Below the pieces are notes generated by a model. That model searched no databases. It had not been told where the DNA came from and saw only the letters and a program-made list of their open reading frames with translations. Of a stretch of DNA of 64,000 nucleotides, positions 6,368 to 58,133 are shown piece after piece. The translations under genes and the position numbers were made by a program. The DNA is taken from contig JBAIAA010000411.1 in assembly GCA_037893245.1 (NCBI GenBank), forward strand, positions 49,731 to 113,730. The letters are read 5' to 3'. Each line of letters opens with the position of its first letter. Position 1 is the first letter of the stretch. Source of the DNA: Crossaster papposus (taxonomy: Eukaryota; Echinodermata; Asteroidea; Velatida; Solasteridae).

Positions 6368-6748
6368 AGGTAGGATACACCATTGGTAATTGCTTGAATT
6401 ATCATGAATGGGTAGATTTGGAGGGTTGTATTTCATAGTACCGGTAAATATCGTTTAACTGACTTTTCCGAAGTTTTACAATCATGGATGCCGAGAAAAG
6501 CACGAAAAACAGCGTTTGTTTTCAACCGGGGTCGAGCCGTTATTCTTATGTTATCTTTGTTTTTTCGTGATAGCCATCCGGCGATCGCGAATTTTTCTTT
6601 ATAAAATTCAATTTGTTGGAATACAGGATATCTAGCGCAATCTATTTGCTGAATGCCTAGAATCATTGTTTACTTTCAATTGAGTAAGATATTTCTTAAT
6701 AATTCGGTAGTAAATATTTTCGATATCTGCAAATGGTGTATCCTACCT
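6368..6748 (+). mobile_element. Family A TTAA-type MITE, complete copy
   Basis: A 381-bp element with inverted ends AGGTAGGATACACCA and TGGTGTATCCTACCT, flanked on both sides by TTAA (6364-6367 and 6749-6752). Recognisable internal blocks, in order, are TTGCTTGAATTATCATGAA, CGTTTAACTGAC, GAAGTTTTACAATCATGGA, TTTTCAACCGG, the small palindrome around CCGGCGATCGCGA, and ATCTAGCGCAAT. The short open frame on the reverse strand is repeat sequence. The TTAA duplication and short ends indicate a piggyBac-like non-autonomous transposon. This copy has CCGGTA added after CATAGTA at 6439-6446. Confidence 0.88.
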
Positions 6749-6752
6749 TTAA

Positions 6753-7027
6753 AGGTAAGATACACCATTTGCAGATAATATCGAAAAAATTTACTACCGA
6801 ATTATTACGAAATATCTTACTTTTTGGTCAATAATGATTGTAGGCATTCAGCAAAAGAATTGCGCTAGATATGCTGTAATTGTTCGGAAAACTGAATTTT
6901 ATAAAAACAAATTCAAGATCGCCGGACGGCGATCGCGAAAAAAACACAAGAACCACTGTTGAAAATGAACGTCGTTTTTTCTTGATTTTCTTAGCATCCA
7001 TGATTGTAAAAACTTTGGACAGTCAAT
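6753..7027 (-). mobile_element. Family A MITE, truncated, tail-to-tail with neighbour
   Basis: A reverse-orientation copy starting AGGTAAGATACACCATTTGC directly after the TTAA at 6749-6752, which also bounds the copy on its left. Similarity runs through TTACTACCGAATTATTA, GCGCTAGATAT and CATCCATGATTGTAAAA, then stops near 7027, where the expected right end is missing. The pair of opposed copies makes an inverted repeat of about 660 bp. Confidence 0.8.
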
Positions 7028-7456
7028 TTTTTTGGGGGGTAAGTGATCGCAGATTCTATAACGTTCAGCGGTACGCGTTTTCCTTCCTTAGCGCCACTGT
7101 TTTGTCATCCTCGATTGCGTTCACGATAGCAGTCAGATGTTCATTCTCTTCTGCTCTGATTCCTGTTCTTATAATCAGTCAACCCATGGTGGGGAAAAAA
7201 AAACCAATTCTTGAGCGACCCACTTTTTCACACATGAACAAACTATTGAATTTCCAATAGAAACCTGCTGGCCCCGACTTGGTCAGAGACTCAGAGTAGA
7301 TATCGATTTCGTTTGACAGCAGCCCACTATGAACAAGTTTTTTGCATGGAAATGAAACGTGTGTAATGACCGTCTTCGAATCGTCAGGGTGGCCATAATA
7401 GACCCCAAAAACCAAAAAAACAAAACACCTCAAAAAATATATACAGTTGGTCTAGT

Positions 7457-8023
7457 GGCGATCGGGAAAAAAACAAAACAACCTAAGAACAACCTAAGAA
7501 CTACCGCCCGACGCCGATTGAAAACGAACGCCGTATTTCTTGCTTTCCTCGGCATATGATTCTAAACTTTCTAACAGGTCAGTTAAAGGTACATGTAGGA
7601 TACACCATTTGCAGATATCGAAAATATTTACTACCGAATTATTAAGAAATATCTTACTCATTTGAAAGTAAATAATGATTCTAGGCATCCAGCAAAATAA
7701 TTGCGCTAGATATCCTCTAATTATTCCGAAAAATTTAATTTTATAAAGAAAAATTTGCGATCGCCGAATAACTGCTCGACGCCGGTTGAAAACAATCTCT
7801 GTTTTTAGTGCTTTTCGCGGCATCCATGGTTAGTAAAACTTCGGACAGGTCAGTTAAACGATATTTACTATAAAATACAACCCCCCAAATCCACCTAATC
7901 ATGATAATTCAAGAAATTACCAATGGTGTATCCTACCTTTATACGATATTTACTATAAAATACAACCCCCGAAATCAACCCATTCCTAATAATTCAAGCA
8001 ATTACCAATGGTGTATCCTACCT
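7457..8023 (-). mobile_element. Family A MITE split by a second A copy
   Basis: The outer, older copy is visible as two pieces. The first is 7457-7582, from GCGATCGGGAAAA to GGTCAG. The second is 7943-8023, resuming at ACGATATTTACTATAAAATAC and ending TGGTGTATCCTACCT. The break falls exactly at the family's internal TTAA (GTCAG-TTAA-ACGAT), where the inner copy at 7587-7938 is inserted. The outer left end is missing. The right flank reads TTAG instead of TTAA, consistent with age. Confidence 0.8.
7587..7938 (-). mobile_element. Family A MITE, inner nested copy
   Basis: A complete 352-bp copy inserted into another A element. The left flank is TTAA (7583-7586) and the right flank TTAT (7939-7942), one substitution from a perfect duplication. 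The left end reads AGGTACATGTAGGATACACC, which is the family end with CATGTA added after the first TA. The right end is TGGTGTATCCTACCT. No coding function. Confidence 0.88.
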
Positions 8024-11000
8024 TTAGCATTATAAAGCATTAAGTATTTAGCACCACAGAGGGTATAATTTACACAGTGTATGTACAATGTATTATTATT
8101 ACATTGTAGTACAACAAATCTGAAACTACAGGTAAGCCTAATATTTCATTGTACATGTACCTGCATGATTTCACTGAGCAACCCCATTAACCCTATTAAC
8201 GTACGTCACCCAATACTACAAAATACTACTTTGAGTAAACTGAGTCATACCACACTGGCCTATGAGAATTGAGAGTAGAATTTTGTAGTACTGTGTACTG
8301 TACCCCAAATGAATGCCTACTGTACATGTAGGACATTAAGGTTAAACTGTTCCAACTATGGTGTCCCTCCCCACCCAAACATCTGTGAGATGAGTGACGG
8401 ATGTGTGTCAAGTTCTGGAACAAAGATAACAATCGCATGACAGATACACATGGTGTGGTACAACCCCAGCTGTGGCGAGAGCTGCCTGCGTGTTGGTGTT
8501 GCTTCAGACAGAAACTACTCAATGGTAATTGCTGTTTACAGGCAGCATGCAGCAACCCCAGGAGAGCAGCGACCAAATCGGCGGTGACGACGCCGCATCA
8601 GGTCTGGCGCACTACCGAACGAGGGCGCTGTTTCCTTGAGCCCAGCTGTTTGTTTACGTGGGTTGCAGACGTGGGTCGCAGACAAGAGTCGCAGACAAGT
8701 AAACCGACCTTAAAAAAACACCCAGTGTCAAACTGACTTAATTAGCCGAGCAGCCAAAAAAAAAAAAAAAAATTGTCGAGCGGCAAAAATCTAATTTCAA
8801 CAATTCTGCCCCCACTAGCCAGTTACCGGTACGATGCACCAAAAACAAAGCGACGAAAAACACATTTCAGGGATTTTTCTCTCTTTTTTTTCTTTCTCCC
8901 AGGTTAACAAAAATAGAATAAAAAATAGATTGGGGCCAATGCACCAGAGTGCACTTTCAATGTAAGTAAAACGCACCTGGCCCTGTACGTTGTTTTCCCT
9001 CGTCTTTCCTCAGACCTCAGGAAATGCCCATGACAGTGGGAAGAAATGCCGTTATAAAAAGAAGAGAAGAAAAAAAACACCCAAAACAAAACAAAATACA
9101 AGAATGTCTGAGTGTGGCGCAAGCTAGCAGCAGACGACGGAGAGAGAGAGAGATCAATAATAACGAATGCGTTAAGTAGGTTGATGCCCCCTTTTTGACA
9201 GATCCGCGATCGAACGGCAGGACACGACCTCATCGTGGCAGAACGCGGAGCAGAACGCATAATACACAGGGGCGGGCCGAGGTAGCGCAGATGAACGGCC
9301 GTAAAGGCTCCGCGTCACTGCATTCAGGTGTTTATCTTATTAGGATAAAAAAAAAAAAAAAAAAGCAGGCAGCGGGGTAAGGACCATGCTTCTCCTCATC
9401 ATCATCATCATCCGCGCCCCGGCAAATGGCATCCCCAACCGATAATTGCGGCCGCTCAACATTTAGCGCGTTAACAAGGAGGTTTTCAAGAAGCTTGATT
9501 TGACGTGCTGGCTTGGCCGCTCTCAGCTTCTCACTTCATCTCAGACAATTAATTAAAAAAAAAAATATTAAAAAAAAGGGAGAGGAGAGGGGAGGGGGGA
9601 GTGGCCTACGACCATGCTCTACTGAAAAAGGAACGGTGGACGACTTCAAAATGAATGCAGACTGTAAAATCTGGGAATCAAATAGAGCATAAGAGTGTTT
9701 GATTGGTTTACCTGATGCGACATGGTAATGATTCTGCAAGTATCGGGGGAATATTGTTATTGTATTTCGGAACATTGTACAAATGTTGGCCGACTATTTC
9801 CAACACTACCCCCAATTTATCCACTTTATATATTATATGTAGACCATATTTCATTTACATGTATGGTTGCACATCCGCGATCTATCGGTGGTCTGGTTTC
9901 CTAAACCTGGTAATTCCATGCCATCTATAAATTGCCCGGTTTCGTGGCGAGAAAATCAAGGAACCAGCCTTAAAAAACAACTTATTTTTCCTTGGTTTTT
10001 CTCAAAATCTATGAACTCCTCGAAATCTATGACTTTAAACAGGTCAGCCTCGCAATTTTAAAAATAAAATATGAATCTCATTTTGCCCATTCATTAAAAA
10101 AAAAATTACAGCAAAAACAAAGGATACTAAACAACAAAGATGGATCTTTTTTAAAAGTCGGCATTGTTTAAAAGCAAAAAACTACACAGATAAAATCATC
10201 ATCAGCTAAAAAAGGAAAACGAAAACAGAAAATGGAATCAGTTTAATCCAAACATCGTCTCGAGTTGAATTGGGAATTGGGTCAAACAAGGAAATGCAAA
10301 AAAAAAGAGAACAAAAGTGCATGGTATGTATGATCAACTAACATGAACCCGATCCGAATCTCATACAATGCGATGGATGCAAAAAAAAATACATGTAAAA
10401 GAAAAAAGAAACATGACGCCACGCTAAACAAGAGCCCACTGATTGCCAGAGTCCTGCAATATTACCACGTACTCCAAAAAAAACAAAAAAAACCTGAAAA
10501 TTGCATAGATGGCGAGTGAGATAGTGTGTTTTTATTGGCAACAGAAATTGGTCATTAACGAGGCAATCATCGACAGCTATCATGACACATTACGCCAGGG
10601 CTAGGTTCCATTACATCGCCGTATCCACATCCGTCAGTGATCTTGCAGACCCAAGGTCGCATATCATAACTCTCCGATATTTGTTTTTGTTCTTCTCATT
10701 TCCCTCCCTGGCTACTGCGGGGAAAAAAATTATTAGAGATTTGAATATCATATATGATTATTAAAGAAAAGAAAAAAATTGTCAAGGACTTAAAGGTTAG
10801 TGTGCCTCGGGGGGCTTGGACTTGGAAGAAATAAAAGGAAGAAAAAAAATGGTGACAAGAATTAGACCAGCGATACTTTATACACTCTCTCCCCTACAGC
10901 GGCTCGTGGTAATGGGCGCAGAACGGAACAGGGAAGGCAAGGCGAGGGAGCCCGCAGTGCCAGAGGTAGCACAAATTATGCAGAATGGGGTTAAGGCCGG

Positions 11001-12224
11001 TGTTATTTGCCACTAATTGGTCTGGCGCCTCTTGTTACCCGTCTGGAAAGAGGGAGAAAAAGTGGGTCAGTAGGGGGGGGGGGGGGGGGGGGGGGGGGGT
11101 GGGAGGAGAATACGGTAGGGGATGAGGTGCAGAAGTGGGTCAGAAGACAAGAGCGATTTACATGTAATGTGATGATGCAGAATTGAGTAGGGGGAAAGGG
11201 GGGGGGGGGGGGGGGGAGGGGGGAAATCTTTTGCTCAATTGTATTTTGAGTTATGGTACATTAAATCACCCCAATTTTAAGACAATAAAAAAAAATTAAA
11301 ACGTTTGTGGTACAATTCGAGTCAAGAGTGTTTTTTGTTACCACTCAAAAATGACTTTATCATCAACCTAAAGTATACTTCTCTCAACTCTATATTTACA
11401 AATTTTGTCCACAAAAATTAAACAGTTTCCTGTAGAAGAAAATGAGATTTTCGTTTGCGTTTTGTGATCAAATCAATGCGATTTTGCGTAAAATCTGTAG
11501 GTCGCCATGATAGCTTTTTTTGTGTGTGGACATTGCATTTTGTCGTTTTCTTTATCATTTTACCACAAAAAATACATTAAAAAAAAACGACAGAAACTAA
11601 ATTCTAAAACAGATTACGACATGTCTGGCTCTAACTCAACGCCGAAAATGTTTTCAAAAAAAAAAAAAAAAAAAAAAGACGAAGAAAAAAATGAATAAGA
11701 AATCTGAACAATGCCAACTACAATAAATCCTGAAGGCTAGGGCCTCACTGCCCTGCGAACACTACCGCCAATGTTTACACAAAACCCACGCTATCAAAAA
11801 CCTTCTCTTTTCTTCCCTGCAATTCCGTGCTTTCTTTCTTTTTGTATTAAACAGCTGCCCAAAAGCACTGACTGGTGATTTGTGTTAGGGCAAACAGCTC
11901 ACCGCCCGCACCTCTCTCTCTCTCTAAAAAAAATCATTCAATTTCTCCGACACCCTTGGGGATCTAATACTGTTGGGAAGAATAAGAAAAATAATACCCG
12001 TGGGTCCCTTAAGATGTTGTGAATGCACATGGGAGCGAAAGTAGAAACTATTAGTACCATTTCTTTCCCCCTCTCCTTTTAACGAGTTAGATTTTTTCTG
12101 TGAAAAAAAGTATCACCATTTTTATGGCTTTAGAAAGATTGAGAATAAAGTTTTAATGAAAAAAAAATGGTCTGACAGAATGTTCCTGAAATTTTTGAAA
12201 AAGAAATTTTTTGAGGTGTGCCAA
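8024..12224. other. Non-coding stretch
   Basis: No gene is recognised. Contents include A and T runs (8756-8772, 9345-9364, 11650-11667), a G27 run (11073-11099), a G19 run (11198-11216) and a GAGA stretch near 9138-9152. The GC-rich patch at 9190-9330 shows no identifiable exon. Open frames of 60-126 codons here show no domain and often end in homopolymers. Confidence 0.5.
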
Positions 12225-12397
12225 TTTGTTACCTTAACTCTAGCCCCCTAGGCTAGCTCATGCACTAGAAAGCATACCAAACCTAACTTCAACAACTGCA
12301 CACAGGTTCAGTAATTATTGGTAATGAACCCGAACAGTACTAAACCTGCCAAACTCCAACTTGTTGAAGTTTGATTGACTTGGTACAGATGGGTCTA
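12225..12397 (-). repeat. Family H dispersed repeat, copy 1
   Basis: The reverse complement of this stretch matches 28880-29032 and 61650-61777. Shared words are AACCTGTGTG, CAGTACCAATAATTAC, GCTTTCTAGTG and CCTAGGGGG. The copy runs from CTCTAGCCCCCTAGG to the AGATGGGTCTACG end. No inverted ends or coding sequence were seen, so the class is unknown. Confidence 0.65.
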
Positions 12398-14346
12398 CGC
12401 AGTGTTCTGTGTTCAGGATCAGGATCAGGATCAGGGCTGTGATGACTGGCCATTGGTTCTGTGTGTTAATTGGACCGTGTTTGAGTGGGGACAGACAGGG
12501 TGTACACATCACACTTACAGTTGACCAGGGACTGTGTCTTGACAAGCTGTGAGCTAACCAATCAAATAATTGTACATATTGATTTTTGTTGGGTAATTGT
12601 AGGAGACGAATACACTTTGGGGTCTCAGGGGATGCCCAAATTGCGCGGCAAGTTGTTTACCACCTTTCTTGATCTTTTTGTGTGTGAAAGGGGGGGGGGG
12701 GGGGGGGATCCTGCGCAGAATAGAAATAGTAAATTTTGCAAGTCCAAGCTTATGTGTTTTTTTCTCACAAGTGTCCTGTGACAAAGGATATTAGCAGCCC
12801 AGTTATTTGTTTGGTTTGGATTTTGTGGTGTTTTGTTTTGTTTTTTTGGGGTTTTTTTTTTGGGGGGAGGTGATGGTGGTTGTGGGGCAGGGTAGGGGAG
12901 GGGGTGTGATGGGTGGTGGGTCGTGAGTCGTGATTAGGGAAAGGGGGGGGGGGTACATACATGTACATGTGCAGGTACATGGATCATTCTTAGTTTGTTG
13001 GAGGCATTAAAGAAGAAAGTGTGTTCGTTTCTGCATTCAAATAAGGGACGTCGAACAAAAGGGTCGCCCTTACAAACAATAATTCTATGATTTGGGGAAC
13101 AACATTGACTGTCAATGTACACACACAAATTTACCAAATCCATAAAATCTTAGTCATTATAAAATCAAAACTTGTTAAAATTTTACTTCAACTTTGCTCA
13201 AAGTGTCGTGCAAAATAAGACAACTTTAATAACTTCAACGTGTAGCAGTCCTCCTGAATCGAGGCGTGCGATTGCACCCCCACACCATCGCACGCCTAAA
13301 GCTTCCTGAGAAGTGCTAATAATTGCACGCCTGAATTCCACTGTACCGCACACCTCGGCATACATTTACGGCATAATTATACCACATAATTTGTGAAAAA
13401 AGTATGTCATTAAAGAGAAAATGGCTTAACTGTAAACTAACCAAGATCAATATTAGGGGACAAAAATGCTAAGTATTGTTTAGTCTCGGGTTGGACCACA
13501 GAATCACACGCCAGAAAATGTACACGCCTAAAAAAAATCAAGGTGTGCTATTTTCAACACGCCTGTGATTTTCAAAACAGAAGGACTGGTGTAGTCCTTT
13601 TTTAAATTATTAACGTGTACAGGAAAGAACAAAAAGAAAAAAAAAAGAAAAATTCTTCGTTTCTCCTTTCTTTCAAAAAAGAAGAAGGAAAAAAAAAAGC
13701 AAATTAAGTTGAAGTCCCTGACAGTGAAGCAGCTCATTTACATACCGGTACCTACATCCACGAGCATCCCAAATGACAGGCCCCAAAAGAAAACATATCA
13801 ATAAAATTTTCTTTTATAGAGAGACGCACCCCGATATAATTCCTCTCCCCCCCCCCCCCCCCCCCTTCTTAACCTCGGGCAATGCATTGATCAAGTGTTC
13901 GCACTTTGTTGCGACAAAATCACCAAGAGCTGCTACTGACACACATTCAAACAATAGCCAGCCCCCACCACCCACCCCCTCCCCCCCCCCCCCCCCCCCC
14001 CCCCCCCCCATGATTTATCAAGTCGTTTGAGTCACCACTTCAAATAAAAACCTGTGTGGACGTGTACCGTACACTCCATCTAGCAGACTCTAGCAGACTC
14101 ACAGACAATAAAAACTTAACCCCCCAAAAAGGGAAAAAAGAAAAAAAAAGAGCTTTGCTCACTTTCTGGGGCTGGGCCTCTTTTACATACAGCCGCTGTG
14201 TATTCACTGTGATTGGAAAGTCTAAGGCCTGTCGGTAAATGCACTGCGCAGGCTAACCCGTGTTTGCTAAGCACTCGGGCCCGTGTCTGCCATTTACTAC
14301 TACCGGTTGCTACTGTAGAAAAGGGGGGGGGGGGGGAGGGGTGATG
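12398..14346. other. Non-coding stretch with G/C tracts
   Basis: No gene is seen. The stretch holds four AGGATC units at 12414-12436, a G18 run at 12690, a T/G-rich block at 12810-12960, a C18 run near 13848 and a C29 run at 13981-14009. From about 13250 to 13570 the word CACGCCT (or its complement) recurs at uneven spacing. Confidence 0.5.
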
Positions 14347-14350
14347 TTAA

Positions 14351-14515
14351 AGGTAGATACACCATTTGCAGATATCGAAAATATTTACTACCGATTTATT
14401 AAGAAATTTCTTACTTATTTGCAAGTAACTAAATTGATTCTATAGGCATCCGGCAAAATGATTGCGCTAGATATCCTGTAATTATTCCGAAAAATTGAAT
14501 TTATAAATTTTTATA
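14351..14515 (-). mobile_element. Family A MITE, truncated
   Basis: Starts AGGTAGATACACCATTTGC directly after TTAA (14347-14350). It keeps TTTACTACCGATTTATTAAG, GGCATCCGGCAAAATGATTG and AGATATCCTGTAATTATTCC. It loses similarity after the TTATAAA block near 14515, so the other end is missing. Confidence 0.8.
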
Positions 14516-14912
14516 AATCCAGAAACAATTACACATTTTTTGTTTTTAAATCCCATTAATTTGTTACTGGCAATAAAAAAAAAGAAAACAAAAGAAAACA
14601 GGGGCTGTGTTGCCCCTTTAAGACTGTTGTAATGACCATGTTAATGTGTCCTTTTTTTTGGTACCACCTTTTAACTATAATACTGTGCATACAATACATG
14701 CACAGCTAGCTACTGGGTACCTGCAGGCTTGGTTGGAAGTAATCTCTTTATGCAAGTTTGGATTGGCCTTGAGCGACCTCAGTTGACCTCCGTGACCTTA
14801 AACGACCTTTCAGGTCTCAGCACACTACATGTAGCAGCATGATTAGGGTGATTTGTTTGTTAAATGGTGGGAGCTTTTACATTCATCAACATTGGGTGGG
14901 ATTATGTTTTAA

Positions 14913-15325: not shown

Positions 15326-15329
15326 TTAA

Positions 15330-16577: not shown

Positions 16578-16801
16578 TACATGTACATGTACATGTACAT
16601 GTACATGTACATGTACATGTACATGTACATGTACATGTACATGTACATGTACATGTACATGTACATGTACATGTACATGTACATGTACATGTACATGTAC
16701 ATGTACATGTACATGTACATGTACATGTACATGTACATGTACATGTACATGTACATGTACATGTACATGTACATGTACATGTACATGTACATGTACATGT
16801 A
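16578..16801. repeat. TACATG hexanucleotide array, 37 units
   Basis: About 37 perfect head-to-tail copies of the self-complementary hexamer TACATG/CATGTA. Both strands read the same, so open frames of up to 165 codons appear on both strands in several frames and none is a gene. The array can form a cruciform. Shorter versions (2-4 units) occur all over the window. Confidence 0.97.
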
Positions 16802-16843
16802 TCAACAAATTTGGGTTACCGCCAACCTAAGGCCAGATAGAGG

Positions 16844-16915: not shown

Positions 16916-16919
16916 TAAA

Positions 16920-19483: not shown

Positions 19484-19876
19484 AGGTATAATACACCATT
19501 TGCAGATATATCAAACATTTTTACTACCAAATTATCAAGAAATATCTTACTGATTTGAAAGTGAATAATGATCCAAGGCGTCCAGCAAAATTATTGCCCT
19601 ACGGTAGATATCCTTGTAATTGTTCTGAAAAATTGAATTTTATAAAAAAAACTTAAACAAAAAACGCTATCGCCGAAAAACAAGAGCAACAAGAACAACA
19701 AGACCAGGTTGAAAACGAACGCTTTTTTTCTTGCTTTTTTTTCTTGGCATCCATGATGGTAAAACTTCAGACAGGTACGGTGAAGTTAAATGATATTTAC
19801 ATGTACTATAAAATACAACCCTCCAAACCCACTTATTCTTGATAATTCAAGCAATCACCAATGGTGTATTCTACCT
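19484..19876 (-). mobile_element. Family A MITE, full-length divergent copy
   Basis: Starts GGTATAATACACCATTTGC after TCAA and ends TGGTGTATTCTACCT before TTAA (19877-19880). All main internal blocks are present. Three additions relative to other copies lie at or near TA: CGGTA in GCCCTACGGTAGATAT (19600-19607), CATGTA in TATTTACATGTACTATAA (19798-19805), and ACGGT after GACAGGT at about 19775. The CAACAAGA words near 19687-19710 are also expanded. Confidence 0.83.
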
Positions 19877-23765: not shown

Positions 23766-24236
23766 AGGTACATGTAGGATGTAACCATTGGTAAATGTTT
23801 GAACTATCATGAATGGGTGGATTTGGGGGGTTGTATGTTATAGCAAATATCATTTAACCAGTTCGCGCCGGATGACGTACCGGTATATAAACGCAAAGTT
23901 TTCCCCAGATTCAAAACGGGTGACGCATAAACACGCCACAAGCAAGGCCGGAAATGTCTGTCAGCAGCAAGCAAGGCCGGAAATGCGTGGGTGTGCTTCC
24001 CAACACTATCAGTCTGAACCCGCTTTGGATCGAGTTTCGTTAAAAATAATCCCGCCCTTCGGCTCGGTGATGTTAAAATAATCCCGGCGCGAACTGGTTA
24101 ACTGACCTGTCCGAAGTTTTACAATTATGGATGATGAGAAAAGCAAAGAAAAATGGCGTTCGTTTTCAACCGGCGTCGGGCAGTAGTTCTTATTTTGTTC
24201 TTTTTTCTTTTTATTTCGATCGCCGTCCGGTTAGAG
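23766..24236 (+). mobile_element. Family A MITE split by a family B element
   Basis: The left part is 23766-23857, with end AAGGTACATGTAGGATG and a CATGTA addition. The right part is 24098-24236, resuming at TTAACTGACCTGTCCGAAG. The interruption is a complete B element placed at the internal TTAA of family A. The copy is truncated near 24236 after GATCGCCGTCCGG; its right end is absent. Confidence 0.85.
23858..24097 (+). mobile_element. Family B TTAA-type MITE, nested in family A
   Basis: A 240-bp complete copy with perfect inverted ends CCAGTTCGCGCCGG and CCGGCGCGAACTGG, flanked by TTAA at 23854-23857 and 24098-24101. Compared with the copy at 3865 it has CCGGTA added in GACGTACCGGTATATAAAC. 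Perfect ends and perfect duplication point to a fairly young insertion. Confidence 0.92.
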
Positions 24237-25721: not shown

Positions 25722-26217
25722 GGTAAGATATACCGCTACACCATTGGCAAGTGCTTGAATTATCAGGAACGGGTTGGATTTGTAGTAAATATTATAGTAA
25801 ATATCGTTTAACTGACCTGTCCGAAGTTTTACACTCATGGATGCTGAGAAGAGAGCAAGAAAAATGGTGTTCGTTTTCAACCGGCGTCGGGCAGTTGTTC
25901 TTGTTTTTTCGCGATCGTTTTTTTCCCGATTGCTGTCCAGCGATCGTGATTTTTTTTTTTTATAAGAAAGATTTACACTCATTTTTTTCATTACAGAAAA
26001 ACGGCGTTCGTTTTCAACTGGCGTTGAGCAGTGGTTCTTAGGTTGTACTTGTTTTGTTGTTTATCAGATTCAATTTTTCTGAACAATTACAGGATATCTA
26101 CATCTAGCGCAATCATTTAGCTGGATGCCTTGAATCATTATTTACTTTCAAATAAGTACGGTAAGATATAAATTCGGTAGTAAAATTATTCAATATCTGC
26201 AATGGTGTATTCTACCT
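25722..26217 (+). mobile_element. Family A MITE with internal duplication
   Basis: The left end AGGTAAGATATACCGCTACACC has no clear TTAA to its left. The right end TGGTGTATTCTACCT is followed by TTAA (26218-26221). The block around CGTTCGTTTTCAACYGGCGT occurs twice (25865-25905 and 25998-26040), which makes this copy about 100 bp longer than its relatives. GTACGGTAAG at 26156-26163 has CGGTA added to the family GTAAG. Confidence 0.8.
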
Positions 26218-32514: not shown

Positions 32515-32760
32515 CCAGCTTGCGCCGGGATTATTTTAACATCACCGAGCCGAGGTGCGGGATTATTTTTAACGAAACTCGATCCGAGGCGGGTTCAGGC
32601 CGATGGTAGGCCTACCGGGAAGCACACCCACGCATTTCCGGCCTTGCTCGCTGCTGACAGACATTTCCGGCCTTGCTCGTGGCGTGTTTATGCGTTATCC
32701 GTTTTGAGTCTGGAGAAAACTTTGCGTGTATATCCCGGTACGTCCTCCGGCGCGAACTGG
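32515..32760 (-). mobile_element. Family B TTAA-type MITE, reverse orientation
   Basis: A 246-bp copy from CCAGCTTGCGCCGGGATTAT to CCGGCGCGAACTGG. The right flank is TTAA (32761-32764) and the left flank TTAA plus one extra A (32510-32514). The interior is the reverse complement of 3865-4099, including the two GGCCTTGCTCG words. Open frames on both strands here are element sequence. Confidence 0.88.
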
Positions 32761-33414: not shown

Positions 33415-34396
33415 AGGACAGGAAAAGGGAGAAAGAAATAGGTCCGAAACCAGCACAAAACATCTCGTCTGATATGGATACTGACCGACGATGCCGCAAT
33501 AACAGAAAGCGATCGGCGGGTTAACGGGTTTTGAGCGAGGAGTTGAGGAGAAAAACAGGCCTATCAAATAGTCCCCCTGTCCATCTTTTTAAGTCATTTA
33601 ATGTCGTGCACCCGAGGGTTTCAATTACAAACTGGGTTTTCTGGTGTGTGTTTTTTAGACAGTCTCGTCTTTTCATGATGTTCTAGATTCTGTAAAAGTC
33701 TACTGTCTTGTCCTTCGTTTCATTTAATTTCCTTAATAGGACGAGGCTAGGGAAAACCAGGTCTTTATCTTCTTTTTTTATCTGCCGAGGGCATCACTTG
33801 CACTTGGCGAAAACCAATATCAAGTTCAAAGATCTATATATATAAATGGTCGGATTCGTTTACGCATTTTAGTTGAGGAAGGGATACCGGCGATACCTCT
33901 TATGGAGCCACAATTAAATTGCATGATTGGGAAAATGAGAACTACCTGTCTCTTACGATGCATTGAAGCTGCTCTGAAAACAGCGAGGGAATCGGGTTGT
34001 CAAGCGGGATTTCCCAGAAATAAGAATAGCAACAGGAACGACACCCCGCCAAGCACAAGGTTCCATTGGCCTAGATTTTGTTGGAGCATTTCTTTTGTAT
34101 TAGGGCAAGCTCACGATTATGTGTTTAGCTTTGAGGCAGGCTTTGCCTACATAATAGGGAGACCCCGTAGACCGTGATTATGTACAAAAATCTGGAGCGA
34201 CAGGCACAAAAAACGTGAAAATGAAAGAAGAAGAAAAGAAACCCTTTTGTCCAACTCAACCACCTGCAAATACAATGGTTCCCATGAGTCTGCCCCAAAG
34301 AACTGAAAAGTACATTAAATTTTCTTGAAAAAAATAAAATAACAAAGTGCTAACATGGATGTTTGTATTCCTTTGTTTTGCTTTTGGTGACAGCTC
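32765..34396. other. Non-coding stretch
   Basis: No gene is seen. The stretch is AT-rich with an A27 run (33387-33413). A 91-codon frame at 33902 has no recognisable domain. Confidence 0.45.
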
Positions 34397-34643
34397 TATG
34401 TTCCGAAACCCTTATGTTCCGACACCCCTATGTTCCGACACCCCAACATGTACCGGTACATGTACATGTATGTTCCGACACCCCTACATGTATGTTCCGA
34501 CACCCCTACATGTATGTTCCGACACCCCTACATGTATGTTCCGACACCCCTACATGTATGTTCCGACACCCCTACATGTATGTTCCGACACCCCTACATA
34601 TATGTTCCGACACCCCTACATGTAGGTTCTGACACCCCTACAT
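34397..34643 (+). repeat. Minisatellite built on ATGTTCCGACACCCCT
   Basis: The first units are 16 bp apart (34398, 34414, 34430). The next interval is 40 bp, because ACATGT, ACCGGT, ACATGT and ACATGT are added. After that eight units follow at 22 bp, each with CATGTA added at the TA (CCCCTACATGTATGTTCC). The spacings are therefore 16, 16+4x6 and 16+6. The overlapping open frames are read-through and not genes. Confidence 0.93.
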
Positions 34644-46669: not shown

Positions 46670-47119
46670 TATGTGACCCGCTCTACAAAAATGAGTCTGA
46701 TGTCGGAAAATACATTTTTACGTAAAGGGCTGTTTATTGTCTCAGAAGTGATTTTTCCTTCAACAAATAATATTTTAGTTTTAAGGCAATTTGGTTTCTT
46801 CGACACCTATATTTTCAGATCTGATCGATTGAAAAGATTGTTTTGATCCCTAAATTAAATTTAATACAGGTTTTGTCATTCTCTTACCATAGCATCTGAT
46901 GAAGCACTACAATTGTAAATCTTTATTTCTTTTCAAAGACATTTTGAATATAACTGAGAACAAGAAAATTTAACAAAATTGTAGAAGACCAACGCATGAC
47001 ACTACGGAGTTGTGCCATATCAAATGAAAGCTTTTTTTCCTTCTTTTTCTGATCAACTGTCAAGTTGAATTTTTTTTTTTTAACACATCAGACTCATTTT
47101 TGCAGAGTGGGTCACATAT
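46670..47119. mobile_element. 450-bp terminal-inverted-repeat element
   Basis: The left end TATGTGACCCGCTCTACAAA continues as AATGAGTCTGATGT. The right end is its complement (ACATCAGACTCATTTTTGCA, then GAGTGGGTCACATA). About 34 bp of end sequence pairs with a few mismatches. The interior is AT-rich and non-coding. It is likely a non-autonomous DNA transposon. The superfamily is undetermined because the flanking duplication is ambiguous. Confidence 0.78.
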
Positions 47120-49770: not shown

Positions 49771-49773
49771 TTC

Positions 49774-49833: not shown

Positions 49834-49837
49834 TTAA

Positions 49838-52070
49838 TGAGCAGAAATACTAACATTTGCATAGACGGACTGCTTTTAGTGCAGTGACATCTACTGAACA
49901 GATGTCCGCAATCCTATCGTCTGTTGACCTACATTTTTTGTGTATTTCGGAAGGAGGCCGGCTTCAAAAGCTGGGAAGGGAGGAAGCCATAATAATGAAA
50001 TCAAGATGCCCGGGGGGATTTCAATTTAGCATCTTTCCCCCCTGTACATTCCCGCAAAAGTCAACATTGGATATTAATTTGTTTGTTAGCCCGGCAAACC
50101 AATAGAAGAACGATACATGTACTATGGAATGCGTATTTTGGACACTAACAACAAAGAGTACGATGTCAGCTTCAAAATGCAAAATCCTTGAGAATGTGGA
50201 TGTGGTCGGGGGAAAACAAAATTGAAAGATTTGTGAAATTCACAAAAGCACCACCTCAAATTTGGTATAAAATTATAGGGGACAACAAGTTTTAAAAAAA
50301 TTACATGTTTTTTGTATAAATTAAAAACAAAATTGATTCTGAATTTCAAGTGGGGTAGTAATTTTGGCACATTGGTTTTTTGTGTGCAAAATTATTATCT
50401 GGCTTTGTGAACTAAAAAAAAAAAATCAGAAAGTCACAAAAAACCGGTTTGTGATGAAGAGAAACCCACAGAAAACCAGCTGAATATTTGAATCAATAAA
50501 CATGTAGCAGGCCCCATTTTGTTGTCCTTCGTTCGATCAACCGACATCTATTAAATGTGGCATAAAAATGCGTCAGCTGCGCATCTGTTGAACCCGTTTG
50601 TGCTTTCTGGGTTGAATTTGTTTGGAGCAATGAAACGTCCGGGGTTGGAGAATTTTCATGCCTGTCCGGTTTCGGGAGATCTCAAAACCGGCAATTAGGT
50701 TTATACTCGATACCGGAAAGGTCATTTTTTTATTTTGGATTTTTTTTTTCCAGCTGGATTTATACCTCGGGCGCTGAAACTGTGAACGCCTTGTAATAAT
50801 TAAATAGACGGACATTTCGAGTTCACTTTAACTTTGGTGCATAGCCAAATTGGGGCATGTTTGTGTACATGTCATTGGATATGTTCAGGTACCCAACAAC
50901 TTGGTGTAAGAGTTGGACCAAGTTGAATTGAGCAGAAAGGTCATACGAGTCACAGTTCGACTCTGTTGGATTCAGCAGGCAAGTCCTGGAAAAACCATTG
51001 GAAGTTCGGGTGGTAAAAAAAAACACACACAAAAAATGACCAAGTTCGGACTTTCTTTTGTGAACCGATGTAATCCCCGTTGGAATCGCTACGTAGACAG
51101 AACATCGACCCAGAAAAACAGAGAGAGTGGAGAACGCGCAAACATCATTAAGTAGGAATCGGAAGGAAAAACAAATGGAAAGGAAAAATAAAGGACAGGA
51201 AATACTGCAACTCAAGTCAACGAACTGGATTTGAATTTCAAACTACACAACCCACCCCCCTAAAAAAAAAAATATTTTAAAAAAAAAAATAACAAAATAA
51301 AAAGGGGGGGAAAACAAAGATATACATACTTAACAACTGGTGAATTATTTTCTTTTGATCTTTGCTAGAGCTTGTATAAATATTGATGAAACTTGCAACA
51401 GAGGGGGGGAGGGAGAGTTAAAGTCACCTGGACAAGGAAATATCCAGCCCGGAGAAGTTTGTTTTGCTTCCATTTGAAACTTGTTGAGTAGATGAAACGC
51501 AAATAGCAGAGACATGCATATGAATATATTCAGTCAATTTTCCTCCGAGTGCGTCTAAAATAGTCGAATGCAAAGGTGGCAGATGAATTAATCGGAAAAG
51601 AAATTGTAAAGTGGGGGGGGGGGGGGGGGGGGGAGAGAGTCCACTGGACACTCTTCTTGCAAAGTCGCTTCCTGGATATTTCCCCTGGCGCTCAAAAGAG
51701 ACTGAAATACCCATTAAAGATGCCCAAACAAAATTGGGTTTCAGGAAACTCGATCCAGAATATGAACCTCTGGGAACATTTATATTATTTTTTTTGTATT
51801 TAAAAAAAGATAAAAAAATATTTTGTGCATCTTCGGGGAGGTTGAAAAGTTGTACTGATGGTCACCAACACAGTTAAAAAGTGGGTCAGAGCAGAGGTAC
51901 ATGTACGTAGGAGATATGTGTGCACTATTTTACGAAACACACTGGTGAAAAAATACAAATTTCTCTAGGTTGCCAACAACACAAGAAACCACTGAATTAT
52001 TATGAATTATACTTACTGGCTGTAAGCAAACAATAGTCTCAAGAATCGTGTGAAATCATGCCACCTGAAG
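49838..52070. other. Non-coding stretch
   Basis: No gene is recognised. The stretch holds A/T tracts, a G22 run (51612-51633) and several 60-130 codon frames with no known domain. Confidence 0.45.
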
Positions 52071-52288
52071 GAGCCAATTTCACAAAGCTGCTAAAGCACA
52101 ACAATTTGCTTAGCACCAAAAAGTATTGCTCAGTAAAGACCGGGTGTTTTTAATGCTAAGCAAAAACCAGCTGATTTATAAGTCACAAATAATATACTGT
52201 ACATGTACATGTATTGGTCTGTAACACTGTTTTTGCCCCCCAAAAATGTTCACAGCTAAGCAAATTTTTGTTCCTTGAAATTGGCCCC
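52071..52288. repeat. Family G inverted-repeat element, copy 5
   Basis: Starts GAGCCAATTTCACAAAGCTGC and ends TTCCTTGAAATTGGCCC. It shares AGCACAACAATTTGCTTAGCA and ATGCTAAGCAAAAACCAGCTG with the other copies. It is shorter (218 bp) with part of the right arm lost. It contains TACTGTACATGTACATGTA. Confidence 0.7.
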
Positions 52289-52602
52289 TGGTTTGCTGTG
52301 GGTTTTCATGAAAAGTGACATTTTTGCATCAAATTTCCAATCATTGCCGGCCAACTATCGTTGAAAAAAACTTGATTTTTTTCCTTTAAAATACTGTCCC
52401 CACTTATTTAGTTTGCTTACAAATTTTGGTTGCTTGCAATTGGTTACACATTTGACGCACACCAAGCAAGTTTGTTTTCGACGGACTTGGCCCAAGTAAA
52501 ACATACGATGTACGTACATTATTTCGCACAGTGCTATCAGATCTTAGAAATAAACTTTCCAATTCACATGTGGTGTGAAATCATCCGGCACTTCCTGTTT
52601 AA

Positions 52603-52805
52603 AGGTACTATATGATACACCGTCCGGCGATCGTGAATTTGGTTTTATAAAATTTAATTTCTCGAAACAATTACAGGATATCTAGCGCAATCCTTTTGCC
52701 GGATGCCTACAATCATTATTTACTTTAAAATAAGTATGATATTTCCTAATAATTCGGTAGTAATTTATTTTCGATATCTGCAAATGGTGTACATGTATCT
52801 TACCT
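52603..52805 (+). mobile_element. Family A MITE, internally deleted
   Basis: The left end AGGTACTATATGATACACC jumps directly to the CGTCCGGCGATCGTGAATTT block, so about 200 bp of the consensus is missing. The right end is intact apart from an added CATGTA (GGTGTACATGTATCTTACCT). TTAA flanks both sides (52599-52602 and 52806-52809). The right TTAA is shared with the palindromic family D element. Confidence 0.87.
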
Positions 52806-52809
52806 TTAA

Positions 52810-53290
52810 AGGATCACAGAAATAGAAAAATAAAAATTACTTATATGATATAAAACATAGGTTACAGTATTAATACACCCAATACAAACAATTGTGTGTG
52901 ATTTTATGGTTATTTGAGCCATTACAAATTTCAAATTTCTCTTCGATGGCCCCGCCCAGAAAAATTCCCCCTTTGACAGAATGCCTGGATGTCGAAGTCG
53001 TGACGTCACGTAAAGAATAGCTTTCTTCGCGATTGATTGCGATCGCGTGGTTACGTACATGATGTACGCATGCGATCGCGATCAATCGCGAAGAAAGCTA
53101 TTCTTTACGTGACGTCACGACTTCGACAGGAGGAATTTTTCTGGGCGGGGCGATCGAAGAGAAATTTGAAATTTGTAATGGCTCAAATAACCCTAAAATC
53201 ACACACAATTTTTTTTATTGGGTGTATTGATACTGTAACCTATGTTTTATATCATATAAGTACTTTTTATTTTTCTATTTCTGTAATCCT
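52810..53290. mobile_element. Family D long-palindrome TTAA element
   Basis: Inverted ends AGGATCACAGAAATAG and CTATTTCTGTAATCCT are flanked by TTAA on both sides (52806-52809 and 53291-53294). The arms are about 220-240 bp and about 95 per cent identical over their length. Only about 20 nt of unpaired centre remains, between inverted CGATCGCG words near 53041-53075. Each arm carries GTGACGTCACG (a palindromic CRE word). The left arm has about 20 extra nt (AGAATGCCTGGATG region). The mirrored open frames are arm sequence, not genes. Confidence 0.93.
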
Positions 53291-53484
53291 TTAATGCCCG
53301 GTACAAACAATGATAGGGGACTGAACATTGATAAAAAGTGCTGTGACCTTTACAGCACTTTTTAGGGGGTAAGAATAGAAACTTTGGATGCCTTTGAAGT
53401 TTGAATACCCGAGTGCAATGGAGGGGCAATGTTGCATGTCAAAAAACTGAATCGGCCTAGAAAAAAACCATACATTTGGCTTAA

Positions 53485-53715
53485 AGGTATATGTAGGATA
53501 CACCATTTGCAGATATCAAATTTGTTTACTACCGAATTATTAAGAAATTTTCTACTTGTTTGAAAGTAAATAATGATTCTACATGTAGGCGTCCAGCAAA
53601 ATGGTTACGCTAGATATCCTGTAATTTTAAACAAAACAGTCATGGTCGCCAAATGGCGATTGCGTAAATACAAAAAAACAAAAAGAACAACTGCCCCATG
53701 CTGGTCGAAAACGAA
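53485..53715 (-). mobile_element. Family A MITE, truncated
   Basis: Starts AGGTATATGTAGGATACACC directly after TTAA (53481-53484). It keeps the main blocks to GGCGATTGCGTAAAT and CTGGTCGAAAACGAA, then diverges near 53715. It shows two TA-centred additions: TATGTA at 53489 and CATGTA in GATTCTACATGTAGGCG (53580-53588). Confidence 0.83.
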
Positions 53716-55130
53716 TATATGGTACAAAGTATATTATGATGTTCAATCATTTGTGTGCAAAAATATCAACAGTCTAATAAAGCCATATACGCCACACTGA
53801 ATAAAGCCACATGTACGTACTAATAACACATTCAAAGAACTGAAGCTACCTGTACAGTACCATACAAGTACAAGACATAAGACATAGGGAAACTGTAATA
53901 ATCTGCTCGCAAAGCATCAGTTAAAATCTTACAAATACCAATTACGCAAACACGTTAAGGGGGAAACAACGATGTATCATACTCTGCCTTACCATCCAGA
54001 TATTTTCAAAAAGGTACTAGTACACAAAGATCCATACATGTAAAAAGGCAAAAATTCAAATTTATCATTATAATAGAATTCATTGTAGAACTTAATTCTG
54101 TAAGTACCGTACTTACTTCATGCAGAGATACTGTAGGGAGTGCCTACTGTAGCTCTATGAGTATGAGTACTCCGTTTCCCACATAAATCTCTGTTCAGTC
54201 AATACAGGTGTACTGTCTTTTTAGTTTGGGGGCTCATGTTAAACCACACAGTTCAGTCAGCAAACTACATTGTACATGTGCCACATGTAGTTGAACATTA
54301 CTACTGCATGCACCCTAATGTAGCTGAACCTTGAAATAGCTCCCTCCCAATCAAGGTCGGCACCATGAGGCTGCTATCATGATAAACACACCTAGCACAG
54401 CACCACCATAGCTGTCTGGGTTCATTATCAGTGCAGCTAAATAAAAAAGTCAGTCTGCCCTTGAGACTAGACTGTACAGTATGTAATTGGCAGCAGAATG
54501 GAATTTGTTATCCCATTGAAGAAAATACATCAATTGAACAGGTCATGGGTTGGGGGGGGGGGGGGGGGGAGGGGGTTAAGGAAGAGAATGGAGTAGAGGT
54601 GTTGGCATTAGGCACCTGTGAAAATACTTATGATACAGGCATTGCATCATTCATAAGTACAAAGTTTACAATTATTTCTTGATAAAAAAAATCGTTCACT
54701 GTCTATAAATGTTTTATAAAACAATGTATTCACTTGTCTTTGTTTTTGGACCCCCCCCCCCCCCCCCCCCCCACCACTCCTCCCACCTCCCACACACGAT
54801 TTATTTTGTATTGTTAACCAGCTTACACAAAACAATCTGAGAATTTGGATACTGTTGGGGTTTCCCCTATCAATTTCCATGCAACACCAGTAGCACTGAA
54901 ATTCATGAACATAAATTGCCCTACTTACATGTACTGGTACATGTAGGCTCACCATGTGTAACAAGCCAACACTAGTACCAGTATAAGGAGAGGGAAAAAA
55001 AGCCAGGCAGTGCACAGTAATGTGCAGAATACTAGGTTAATTTATGGAAAGCATGTGCTTCAAGCTTTACCACTGATTCAACACATGGCACCTCTGTGTC
55101 TATGCATGTTGTATAGGGTACATTTTACAG
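53716..55130. other. Non-coding stretch
   Basis: No gene is seen. G and C runs lie at 54553-54569 and 54751-54772. The stretch is AT-rich with scattered ACATGTA words. Confidence 0.45.
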
Positions 55131-55134
55131 TTAA

Positions 55135-55526
55135 AGGTAGGATACACCATTGGTAATTGCTTGAATTATCATGAATGGGTGGATTTGGGGGGTTGTATTT
55201 TATAGTAAATATTGTTTAACTGACCTGTCCGAAGTTTTACAATCATGGATGGCGAGAAAAGCACGAAAAACAGCGTTTGTTTTCAACTGGCGTCGAGCAG
55301 TTAATTTTTATGTTTTTTGTGGGGTTTTTCGCAATCGCCGTCCGGCAATCGCGAATTTTTCTTTATAAAATTAAATTTTTCAGAATATTTACAGGATATC
55401 TAGCGCAATCATTTTGCTACCGTACCGTAGATGCCTAGAATCATTATTTACTTTCAAATGAGTAAGATATTTCTTAATAATTTGGTAGTAAATAGTTTTA
55501 ATATCTGCAAATGGTGTATCCTACCT
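55135..55526 (+). mobile_element. Family A MITE, best-preserved full copy
   Basis: A 392-bp copy with ends AGGTAGGATACACCA and TGGTGTATCCTACCT and perfect TTAA flanks (55131-55134 and 55527-55530). All internal blocks are present, so it serves as the family reference. The only notable addition is TACCGTACCGTA replacing the TGG of GCTGGATGCC (55418-55430), which looks like two successive TA-centred additions. Confidence 0.92.
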
Positions 55527-55530
55527 TTAA

Positions 55531-55740
55531 AGGGGTAATTCACATTTTGCAGATATCCCAATACAAAATACTGTTGAAAACCTTACTTGTTATGAAGATA
55601 TTTATGATTCTAAACTCCTCGTGAAATTATTTTGTCTGGCATATGCAGTGTCATTTTGAAGAAAAGAATGCCGTTTACCAAATGTGCATCTCAGTCTCTC
55701 AGAGACACGTACATTTTGATTTTGTTAGGAAGTTTCTGCA
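55531..55740 (+). repeat. Possible family F element, left end only
   Basis: Immediately after the TTAA shared with family A, AGGGGTAATTCACATTTTGC is followed by AGATATCCCAATAC. It begins like the family A end (AGGTAGGATACACCATTTGCAGATATCG) but is clearly different. It may be the left end of a related TTAA family. No matching right end was found, so the 3' limit is arbitrary. Confidence 0.35.
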
Positions 55741-58032
55741 AATATTAAAGTGCATGCAAATGTCCTAAAGACGCGCAGCGTAGCGTGACCCACGCGTAGC
55801 TGCAATCCGCTGGCTGAGAACGCACCCTTAACGCAGATATTGTGGTCGTAATCAAAATTGTGACTCGACAAATTTTGAATTAAAATCAAAATTGTAGAAT
55901 ATTGGTTTCCGGGAATATATGCAGCCTTCATAGAGCTAAAAACTTCATCAGGTTGTTTGTCAAGCAAGCACTTTTGCTGCTTCGAACAATTAAAAAAATA
56001 ACCTTGTTTTTAAGGTGAATGCCATTTATACTGAGGAAAACAAACAAAAGCAAAGCAAGATACCCTTAGCATGTGGTCTAGAGCAAACAACATATCAGGT
56101 ATTGGTCTGGTAACAATAGAATGCTCAAACAAGATTAAGATAAAAAGCCCTTAATCCATGGAACAAAAGGACTGCTCTTTCCAGACAGGTGTTTTAGGTG
56201 CTGCTGGTAATATTTTAGGGCTAATGGTTTTGGGGGCTTGTGGGAAAGTATTAATGGAGCATCAAAAGCTCAATATATCGGTAGGATACGATTTTTATAT
56301 TATAGTTGCGGGCCATTTTTGATTGATCCTGAACATGTGTTTCGGATCAATGTAAAAACAATATCAATAGATTGATTAGGAAAGTGGGCAGTGATGACAT
56401 TAAAGGGGATTAAATAAAATCAGTACTCGGACAAAACAATGTATTGATGATGGCGTATTTACCAATGAACAGATGTCAACCCCCCCCCCCCCCCCCCCCC
56501 CCCTCCCCCTAAAACAAATAATAATAATAATAAAATAAACTGATGATATACTCAAAATAGTAATATACAATTTTGTATATTCAGTTACATGTACCGGTAT
56601 ATATACATGTATTGCCCAAATGGTATTAATTTTATTTTTAATTCAATCTCTTGTTTATTTTGATATGTACATTGTAAATTCTTTGCACGGATTTCATTTA
56701 TTAATCTTTGCTCTTGTTTACAGTCCAATGCACTTCAATAGTGGGCTCCCTCCCTCTTGTTTTTTACATGGCACTCCAAAGCATTTAGTAACTACAGAAG
56801 CGCCATTCACTGTACATGCAAAGAATCCTTCAATGCACTGCAGCCGGAGTGATTTAGCATGTAGCACTGACTTGCAGCAAAGAACTCTCATAGAGGAAGG
56901 GTTAATTAAAATACAAATGTTTCTAATGGGTGGGAGGGAAGGGGTTGGGGACACACTTATTTCTCGATAAATTATTCACAACAATTGATGCCTGACGAAT
57001 GTGCTGTGATTGGAAATGACAGTGTTGAAATCTAAAGCAAAGAGCCCTACCTGAACTTAGGATGGATTTAACTTGGGGTAAGCTACTGTCGATCACTTGT
57101 CATCAAGTTAACGGTAGAGTGTTCAGAACACCTGCAGAAAGGGAAAAAAACATTACGGAAACAATTTAGAATTTTTGTTTTCCTCTTAAACTGAATAAAT
57201 TCAAATCCACTGTTCCACAGTGCTTAAAACTCATGGGCTAACGGTACATCTGAAGAAAAATTTGAATTGTAGAATTGGCAGAGGCGAGGCTAGGAGAAAA
57301 AAGAAAACACTACAAAAGAAACGGACAGAGTTCGTACAAATGTAGGTCTTGTTGGGGGGGACAGGAGTTCGTACAAATGTAGGTCTTGTTGGGGGGGGGG
57401 GGGGGGGGGAGGGGTGAGAAGAGTGGGGCAGGTGGGGAGTGGGGCAGGTGGGGAGTTGGGGGTGGGGGTGTAAAACGATGGGGGTCTAAAAGGTCACTTG
57501 GTCTGGGAGATGACATTTTGAGTAAATCTCTTTGCAGATCCCCAGGAAATATTGCAAAGGTCACCGACTCAATTTGTTTTCCCTTCCTGTTCCTTTTTAT
57601 CGCCCTCTTAAAAGTTCACGTCTGTAAGATTGGATATTCTAATTAAACATGGGTGGAGTTAGGGGAAGGCAAGTATTGACGGCTGTCAGTCGATACACGC
57701 TTCAAGTGTTTTCATGCTCAGGGGGTTAAAAACAAAACAATATACACCACACTGACAAAAAAACAGTATAACATGTGTACATTTAATATATTTCCACATG
57801 CAAAGTTAAAATTTGGAAAAGAAAGTGAAAACCTGTCCAATCACATTGTCCTTGTTAAAAGAGCCTTTTCATAGACAAAAAATTGATATTAATTAATTAC
57901 CCCTAATCTTTCCAAATCCTCCAAGATCAATATGATTTTGCACACACCCTAGGGAGTTAGAGGTACATGTAACTTACTTAAAGATTTTCGTAAATAACTG
58001 GATGAAAAACAAACAAATTGAAATATTTTTAA
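55741..58032. other. Non-coding stretch
   Basis: No gene is recognised. The stretch holds a C24 run (56480-56503) and a 36-bp tandem duplication (57325-57360 and 57361-57397, unit ACAGAGTTCGTACAAATGTA). A G17 run and a GGGTGGGG block follow. The 116-codon frame at 56620 has no domain. Confidence 0.45.
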
Positions 58033-58133
58033 AGGCAGGATACACCATTGACACTTGAATTACCATTAATAGGTGGATTCGCGGGGTTGTACATGTATTT
58101 TACAGTAAATATAACTGACCTGTTACAATCATG
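58033..58133 (+). mobile_element. Family A MITE, left part, ending in a minisatellite
   Basis: The left end AGGCAGGATACACCATTG follows TTAA (58029-58032). Blocks run to CTGACCTGTTACAATCATGAA, with CATGTA added at TTGTACATGTATTTTA (58090-58098). Where the family would continue with TTTTCAACCGGCGTCG, this copy passes directly into 16-bp tandem repeats with a similar sequence. Confidence 0.8.

Follow-up and report, generated by a model that had tools for sequence, protein, structure and literature searches.

Short additions between duplicated TA dinucleotides in dispersed repeats of a starfish assembly as probable excision scars of Tc1/mariner-type transposons

The window analysed here, the last 64 kb of the 113 730 bp contig C411 (JBAIAA010000411.1) in the assembly of the starfish Crossaster papposus (1.02 Gb in 1841 contigs), carries copies of dispersed repeats that differ from one another by short additions located at TA dinucleotides. 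We conclude that these additions are very probably the excision footprints of cut-and-paste transposons of the Tc1/mariner type, which target TA. An initial annotation of the window had noted the additions and proposed this origin for them; the observation was confirmed, and the reading as excision scars is well supported by tests at repeat sites across the genome.

The additions were read in two repeat families, which are not TA elements themselves but TTAA-flanked residents in which additions are recorded. Family A (as at 6365–6751, minus strand) is approximately 350–390 bp long, has inverted ends AGGTAGGATACACC and the TTAA flanks of the family, and is apparently non-coding. Its consensus, built from 20 copies, is 353 bp, and a first look across the assembly gave 4382 candidates, 40 of which were scored. 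Family B (as at 23854–24101, plus strand) is approximately 240 bp long with inverted ends CCAGTTCGCGCC and TTAA flanks, and one exact 19-base stretch from it is present 7940 times in the assembly. At one further locus (L017), copies of family B are arranged in tandem and recur every 1.7–1.9 kb or so.

All 12 words that had been named as additions at TA in repeat copies were located, with an offset of no more than 3 bases, and the plain TA claimed for other copies was seen by alignment in both families, at 23769 in ungapped register only and at 26157 by eye, because a deletion nearby masked the gap. In family A, TACATGTA was found at 7590–7597 (close to the left end of the copy), 19798–19805, 23769–23776, 52790–52797, 53580–53587 and 58090–58097, TACCGGTA at 6439–6446 where other copies have plain TA, and TACGGTA, of the 3-base class, at 19600–19606 and 26157–26163. 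The addition at 53488–53495 is TATG, giving TATATGTA, and TACCGTACCGTA at 55418–55429 represents either two 3-base scars or one duplicated scar. A family B copy has TACCGGTA at 23878–23885. Further additions were found beyond those named. A second family B copy includes both TAGGCCTA, of the GG..CC class, at 32607–32614 and CCCGGTA at 32734–32740, which lies at the same site as the addition at 23878 and appears to be of the CCGG type with its TA mutated. Family A copies include TACATCTA at 26099–26106 (CATC, one base short of a match to CATG) and TACGGTG at 19776–19782, which is probably a scar with the second TA mutated. Upstream on C411, locus L025 contributed three more, CATGTA twice and CCGTA once.

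Measured against the family A consensus, the copies on C411 (4330 aligned bases) hold the named additions and the three in L025, and the copies from other contigs (10 001 aligned bases) hold one scar, GGCC in L043, though this second set is biased against additions because 20 of its copies were chosen as best matches. An all-against-all count of insertions and deletions within the DNA sample included too few repeats; on C411 it gave nine TA-class majority additions, five of them scar words (CATG four, CCGG one), and ten others, and at the other loci five TA-class additions, none a scar word, and seven others.

The evidence that carries the conclusion comes from searches of the whole assembly for the exact flanks of a single site enclosing two TA separated by 1–20 bases. 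The additions recovered were compared with an end-plus-end model, in which the first bases of one transposon end are followed by the complement of those of the other, using the ends CAGT, CAAA, CCG and GGG. The list of words was fixed and then applied, as a held-out test, to a site in the unrelated family B (GGATGACGTA..TATATAAACGC; C411:73600, the addition at 23878–23885), which was chosen since the window copy has CCGG there, and that copy is counted among the rows. There were 114 places, and 58 of the 100 listed are single scars, namely CATG (18), CCGG (17), CAG (5), CCG, CGG and CCTG (3 each), CTG, GGCC and CAATG (2 each), and CATTG, CACTG and CAGTG (1 each). Eight more consist of a pair of scars or of one scar with TA, a category introduced at the held-out step, and three contain a scar word, one of which, in TATAAATAGGGCTA, is probably spurious. 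Among the 4-base additions, 40 of 46 fall in the nine allowed words out of 256 where 1.6 would be expected, and the scar words make up 13 of the 17 3-base additions (2.7 expected) and 5 of the 8 5-base additions (0.08 expected). With 7940 intact copies, the proportion having an addition at this TA is 114 of 8054 (1.4 %), and as 69 of the 100 listed rows are or contain scars, approximately 1.0 % of copies are scarred.

Additions away from TA, or of random sequence, had been named in advance as what would speak against excision, and two non-TA controls gave none of the scar class. A family B control with duplicated GA, and an equal number of fixed bases and the same gap, found 6 places genome-wide with no scar-class addition, and a looser non-TA pattern in family A found 22 places, which are mostly short duplications and include no whole scar-class addition. 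Hence, TA lies on both sides of the scar words at the repeat sites when compared with non-TA controls, as it does on C411, and the family B additions have the form of end bases joined to end bases, with the source ends known for the CA class alone.

Two family A sites were searched in the same way. At site 2 (ACGATATTTA..TACTATAA; the addition at 19798–19805) there were 128 places, and 55 of the 100 listed fit the model, though this test is not independent because the end words of the model were partly picked from its rows. The classes are CATG (23), CCGG (7), GGCC (4), CGG (3), two each of CTG, CAATG, CATTG, CCCGG and CCGGG, and one each of CAGCTG, CAAATG, CAAATTTG, CACTG, CAGTG, CCTG, GGCCC and GGGCC. 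At site 1 (AATGATTCTA..TAGGCATC; the addition at 53580–53587) there were also 128 places, 100 of which were listed and 99 transcribed, and these include 29 single scars (17 of them CATG), two double scars and four additions containing a scar. TTTC and CTTC additions also recur at site 1 (in 21 and 9 rows, respectively, among the 100 listed, five copies being on contig C790) and probably mark an inherited subfamily rather than scars. Thus, the TA-centred additions of the CATG, CCGG, CGG and CCG classes that had been predicted were recovered in both families. Classes outside that prediction were also present (CAG/CTG, CAGTG/CACTG, CAGCTG, CAATG/CATTG, CAAATTTG, CCCGG/CCGGG, GGCC, GGCCC and GGGCC), and the excision mechanism implies them.

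Tc1/mariner transposases cut the non-transferred strand 2–3 bases inside the element, and joining occurs at TA. In the sequence of events that we envisage, an element would insert at TA and the TA would be duplicated, as is known for the family, TA flanks being seen here on resident elements; the transposase would then cut 2–3 bases inside each end, a distance inferred here from the lengths of the scars, to leave a 2–3 base overhang on each flank; and end joining would retain 2+2, 2+3, 3+2 or 3+3 bases or would pair two 3-base overhangs. Retention of 2+2 bases would yield CATG, CCGG and GGCC, and 3+3 would yield CAGCTG. The 3+2 and 2+3 products would be CAGTG/CACTG, CAATG/CATTG, CCCGG/CCGGG and GGGCC/GGCCC, and 3-base overhangs paired at their outer bases could resolve to either middle base, giving C(A/T)G and C(C/G)G. 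Some scars may later have slipped into (TACATG)n arrays. Both members of each paired class were observed at the repeat sites, and such pairs are hard to obtain by slippage, by random insertion or from a selected motif. At least three types of end would be needed, CA (CAG, CAA or CAC), CC (probably CCG) and GG (GGG or GGC). For the CC class, the 5-base words alone leave two options for the third base, since CCG and CCC would generate an identical pair, and the 3-base forms point to CCG; either GGG or GGC is compatible with the 5-base words of the GG class.

The words also stand out in bulk sequence. Among 8-mers with at least 8 copies, the two most over-represented in the window under an order-2 Markov model are TACCGGTA (26 vs 0.55 expected, 47-fold) and TACATGTA (130 vs 2.97, 44-fold), of which one (TACATG)n array accounts for 37 of the 130 copies and another array for 8. 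When tandem runs were excluded from 74 kb of C411, there were 27 copies of TACCGGTA (0.63 expected) and 60 of TACATGTA (3.4 expected). As a control for flanks, CCGG or CATG between two identical dinucleotides was counted for all 16 dinucleotides, and on C411 TA accounts for 27 of the CCGG cases and the remaining 15 combined for 2, the corresponding figures for CATG being 60 and 21. In a 220 kb sample of other contigs, TACATGTA (39 vs 4.7, 8.3-fold) and TAGGCCTA (12 vs 1.2, 9.7-fold) are in excess, with TA clearly the top flank for both. C411 also has an excess of TACCAGTA/TACTGGTA (11 vs 2.3, 4.9-fold), which arise from TACCGGTA by CpG decay; this is the pattern expected of ageing CCGG scars in DNA that we assume to be methylated. 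In the first 200 kb, two other palindromes, TGACGTCA and TCACGTGA, outrank the scar words. Outside C411 the 3-base forms are not in excess as words (TACCGTA/TACGGTA 16 vs 17.2 expected; TACAGTA/TACTGTA 26 vs 27.6), and the 3-base classes therefore depend on the repeat-site tests.

Over-represented palindromes could instead be functional binding motifs that have been spread or kept by selection, an origin proposed for both words in Phytophthora promoters. There, TACATGTA and TACCGGTA are listed as the high-confidence promoter motifs M93 and M94 (PMC3597505), and TACATGTA is considered a likely homodimer site, with the Irx family named (PMC3520976). For the starfish DNA we consider this origin very unlikely, because the words occur as clean additions of 5–6 bases within TTAA-flanked repeats at several TA sites, and a palindromic motif does not explain the non-palindromic relatives CAATG, CATTG, CAGTG, CACTG, CCCGG and CCGGG.

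Elements that could leave such scars were sought, and the expectation of a TA-duplicating element with matching ends held for the CA ends. A 1600 bp element is present in L051 (contig C79) and L052 (contig C469) as copies that are 99.4 % identical with different flanks. It is flanked by TA, its inverted ends of approximately 200 bp start CACTACTC right after the TA, and its two open pieces match PF01498 and, in part, PF13358. The copy at L052:106–1705 thus has the inverted ends, TA flanks and DNA-binding and DDE domains of a Tc1-like transposon, though its DDE_3 match covers 66 of 146 positions and no single frame spans both domains. The 2+2 scar of this element would be TACATGTA. A second TA-flanked element, 648 bp long (L023:1419–2066), has inverted repeats of approximately 210 bp that start CAGGRTGTCCACAT, CAGG(A/G)TGTCCACAT. 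Matches to PF01498 occur on many contigs, in frames of up to 387 aa (302 candidates, of which 150 were scored), and transposases of the IS630-Tc1-mariner group are accordingly represented both by these and by the paired PF01498 and PF13358 matches in the 1600 bp element.

Another Tc1-type family, seen by its left end only, is present in L053 (contig C621), L054 (contig C113), L055 and L056. This end starts AAC (AACACCTCAACAAAAGTAA directly after the TA), the C621 and C113 copies are 99.4 % identical, and the corresponding 2+2 word, TAAATTTA, shows no excess. Of the PF13358 matches listed (150 scored of 818 candidates), all except two were on one contig, C8, and this crowding meant that host copies stayed hidden. 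Contig C8 (at least 5.3 Mb) holds near-identical DDE_3 copies, mostly in open frames of 241 aa, and is probably a bacterial chromosome in which an IS630-type element has multiplied massively, the bacterial origin being our inference. Identical stretches of 2194 bases at C692:307300–309500 and 352100–354300 (L049 and L050) were considered as a pair of element copies and rejected, as they have no element boundary; they probably represent a recent segmental duplication, which includes a Tc1-type transposase match in a 385 aa frame.

A number of observations weigh against the excision reading or limit its reach, the first group being found at the repeat sites themselves. Additions outside the model make up 31 of the 100 listed for family B and 45 of the 100 listed for site 2, where 33 are very short or are duplications and 12 are of other kinds, and at site 1 most are not scars, with 45 of the 99 transcribed copying the adjoining TTC and 19 being of other kinds. 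The counts at both control sites are of places only, and copies with the same class at one site may in part share a single event. In favour of replication slippage or small tandem duplication are the duplications at site 2, the TTC copies at site 1 and the (TACATG)n arrays. As the source of the scar words this process is nevertheless scarcely credible, since none of CATGTA, CCGGTA and GGCCTA repeats the sequence flanking the tested sites, and the words recur at three sites in two unrelated families and are absent from the non-TA controls. The initial annotation had argued that slippage does not readily explain single additions at independent TA sites.

A second group concerns the regions outside C411. 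There, in the 220 kb sample, TACCGGTA is only 2.2-fold over expectation (4 vs 1.8) and TA is not distinct as a flank of CCGG (AA 7 vs 3.1, GA 4 vs 1.4), and two other TA-flanked palindromes with no scar reading, TAATATTA (38 vs 6.9, 5.5-fold) and TACTAGTA (8 vs 2.0, 4.1-fold), are also in excess. Nor does excision predict that the density should vary between regions. C411 has 27 copies of TACCGGTA and 1 of TAGGCCTA compared with 4 and 12 in the 220 kb (Fisher P 1e-6), and among the listed rows the mix at the repeat sites is 17 CCGG and 2 GGCC for family B and 7 and 4 for family A site 2. Across the genome, close pairs of TACCGGTA number 1223 vs 1044 for the reversed pattern, so there is no excess of such pairs as such; for TACATGTATACATGTA the reversed-pattern control gave 273 against 439. 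The TACCGGTA pairs are clustered, with merged places, among the matches listed (to contig C40), numbering 13 in the 2.46 Mb of C21, 6 in 2.67 Mb of C25, 2 in 4.22 Mb of C5, 1 in 4.25 Mb of C18 and none in 2.91 Mb of C35. For C21 the binomial P is 2e-6 over these five contigs, which are those of known length in that range, with seven of its places within 76 kb (2.207–2.283 Mb), though P values for this contig are too small because it was picked after inspection of the list.

The regional contrast in CCGG and GGCC would be accounted for if C411 came from a second, related species present in the assembly, in which additions are commoner. We regard this as rather unlikely, since families A and B are common to C411 and other contigs, and contigs of megabase size also contain clusters of TACCGGTA pairs, such as that in C21. 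The same two observations led us to reject contamination as the whole explanation, and an origin in a second species would alter whose scars these are and not what they are. The clusters suggest that C411 is one among several islands dense in excision scars, which could reflect age, target preference, local jumping or different ancestry.

The third group concerns the sources. The expectation of an element with CCG ends was not confirmed in the 316 kb scanned, where no TA-flanked element with CC or GG ends was found and none of the listed matches to TA-flanked inverted repeats starting CC or GG was convincing; one candidate, a CCGCGG pair in L007, was rejected as an element end as it lies within a longer inverted repeat. 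The mariner model PF01359 gave no match, and nor did its controls. These findings leave room for a TA-targeting element outside the Tc1/mariner group, or for abortive insertions rather than excisions, given that no transposase has been linked to the CC and GG ends in this analysis. Either is unlikely in our judgement, as the lengths of the scars and the paired C(A/T)G and C(C/G)G forms are those expected of Tc1/mariner cuts, and Tc1-type transposase matches are widespread.

The scars left by Tc1/mariner-type excision would be numerous. If the family B site is typical, the approximately 69 million TA dinucleotides of the genome (13 523 per 200 kb) at 1 % would give 0.68 million, and the excess of TACATGTA (34 in the 220 kb sample) gives 0.16 million for that word alone. 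The two estimates, both rough, agree within a factor of approximately 4. Some scars appear to have had an afterlife as tandem repeats. In the array at 34396–34643 (plus strand), a 16-base unit, CTATGTTCCGACACCC, has gained CATGTA at TA, and the resulting 22-base unit is then repeated approximately eight times. The (TACATG)37 microsatellite at 16578–16801 could plausibly have grown from a TACATGTA scar in a similar way.

Two other features were recorded. Runs of at least 16 G or C occur at 4.1 per 10 kb on C411 and 0.7 per 10 kb in the 220 kb elsewhere, a difference of approximately 6-fold, with 26 places in the window and 4 in L025. A dispersed repeat of approximately 430 bp at 46672–47116 of the window is also present in L006, L008, L011 and L015; its inverted ends lie near TGTGACC(C/G)GCTC, and it belongs to a different type of transposon.

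Multi-copy TTAA repeats here act as natural reporters of excision, so that a single assembly, without crosses or assays, reveals how often and in what forms excision is repaired. The repeat-site test, in which additions between duplicated TA are compared with a non-TA control, is applicable to any genome, and the ends of lost transposons may be inferred from the scars they leave. A wider proposal, which we put forward tentatively and hold to be somewhat less than probable, is that the scars, at 0.16–0.68 million, are a major origin of small insertions and new microsatellites and, in regions like this window, of the most over-represented words, that their class mix records regional visits by lost families including those with CC and GG ends, and that the same process explains TACATGTA and TACCGGTA in Phytophthora.

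The footprint of Sleeping Beauty is TAC(A/T)GTA. The additions described here resemble this and the other Tc1/mariner footprints, those of C. elegans Tc1, ZB and Passer, in having TA on both sides and in their CATG and C(A/T)G forms. To our knowledge, footprints have been known as single events or from assays, whereas here they form the most over-represented 8-mers of a window and are present in approximately 1 % of the copies at one repeat site. They also differ in including the CC and GG end classes and in length, as up to 8 end bases lie between the TA here and 2–4 in known footprints. As published, Tc1/mariner footprints are 2–4 bp (PMC7913693), those of Passer are 0–4 bp (PMC9976928), and C. 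elegans Tc1 leaves TACATGTA (PMC3520976). The resident 1600 bp element has the inverted ends, TA flanks and both domains of Tc1-like transposons carrying PF01498 and PF13358, and its CAC ends account for the CA classes only. A genome-wide record of excision has also been drawn from DNA comparison in rice, where two species yielded 94 excisions of DNA transposons, Mariner (DTT) included, of which 8 were perfect, with exactly two copies of the target site, and the rest involved deletions or filler DNA (PMC4423477); the starfish record consists, unlike that in rice, of short scars in a few fixed words. Among the open-licence PMC papers listed, the only earlier reports bearing on abundant scars, or on these words as scars, were the Phytophthora papers. 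The identical pair of palindromes in Phytophthora infestans, M93 (TACATGTA, 4150 times in promoters) and M94 (TACCGGTA), was read there as transcription-factor sites (PMC3597505), and a Tc1 footprint was weighed for motif-1, TACATGTA, and set aside on abundance and conservation (PMC3520976). The present data, though drawn from a starfish assembly only, make the footprint reading of TACATGTA in Phytophthora worth testing, and caution against taking abundant palindromes with TA flanks for regulatory motifs when they may be scars, which may apply to the Phytophthora pair. The mechanism itself is thus a known one, and what is unusual in the starfish is the abundance of the scars, the breadth of their spectrum and their regional mix.

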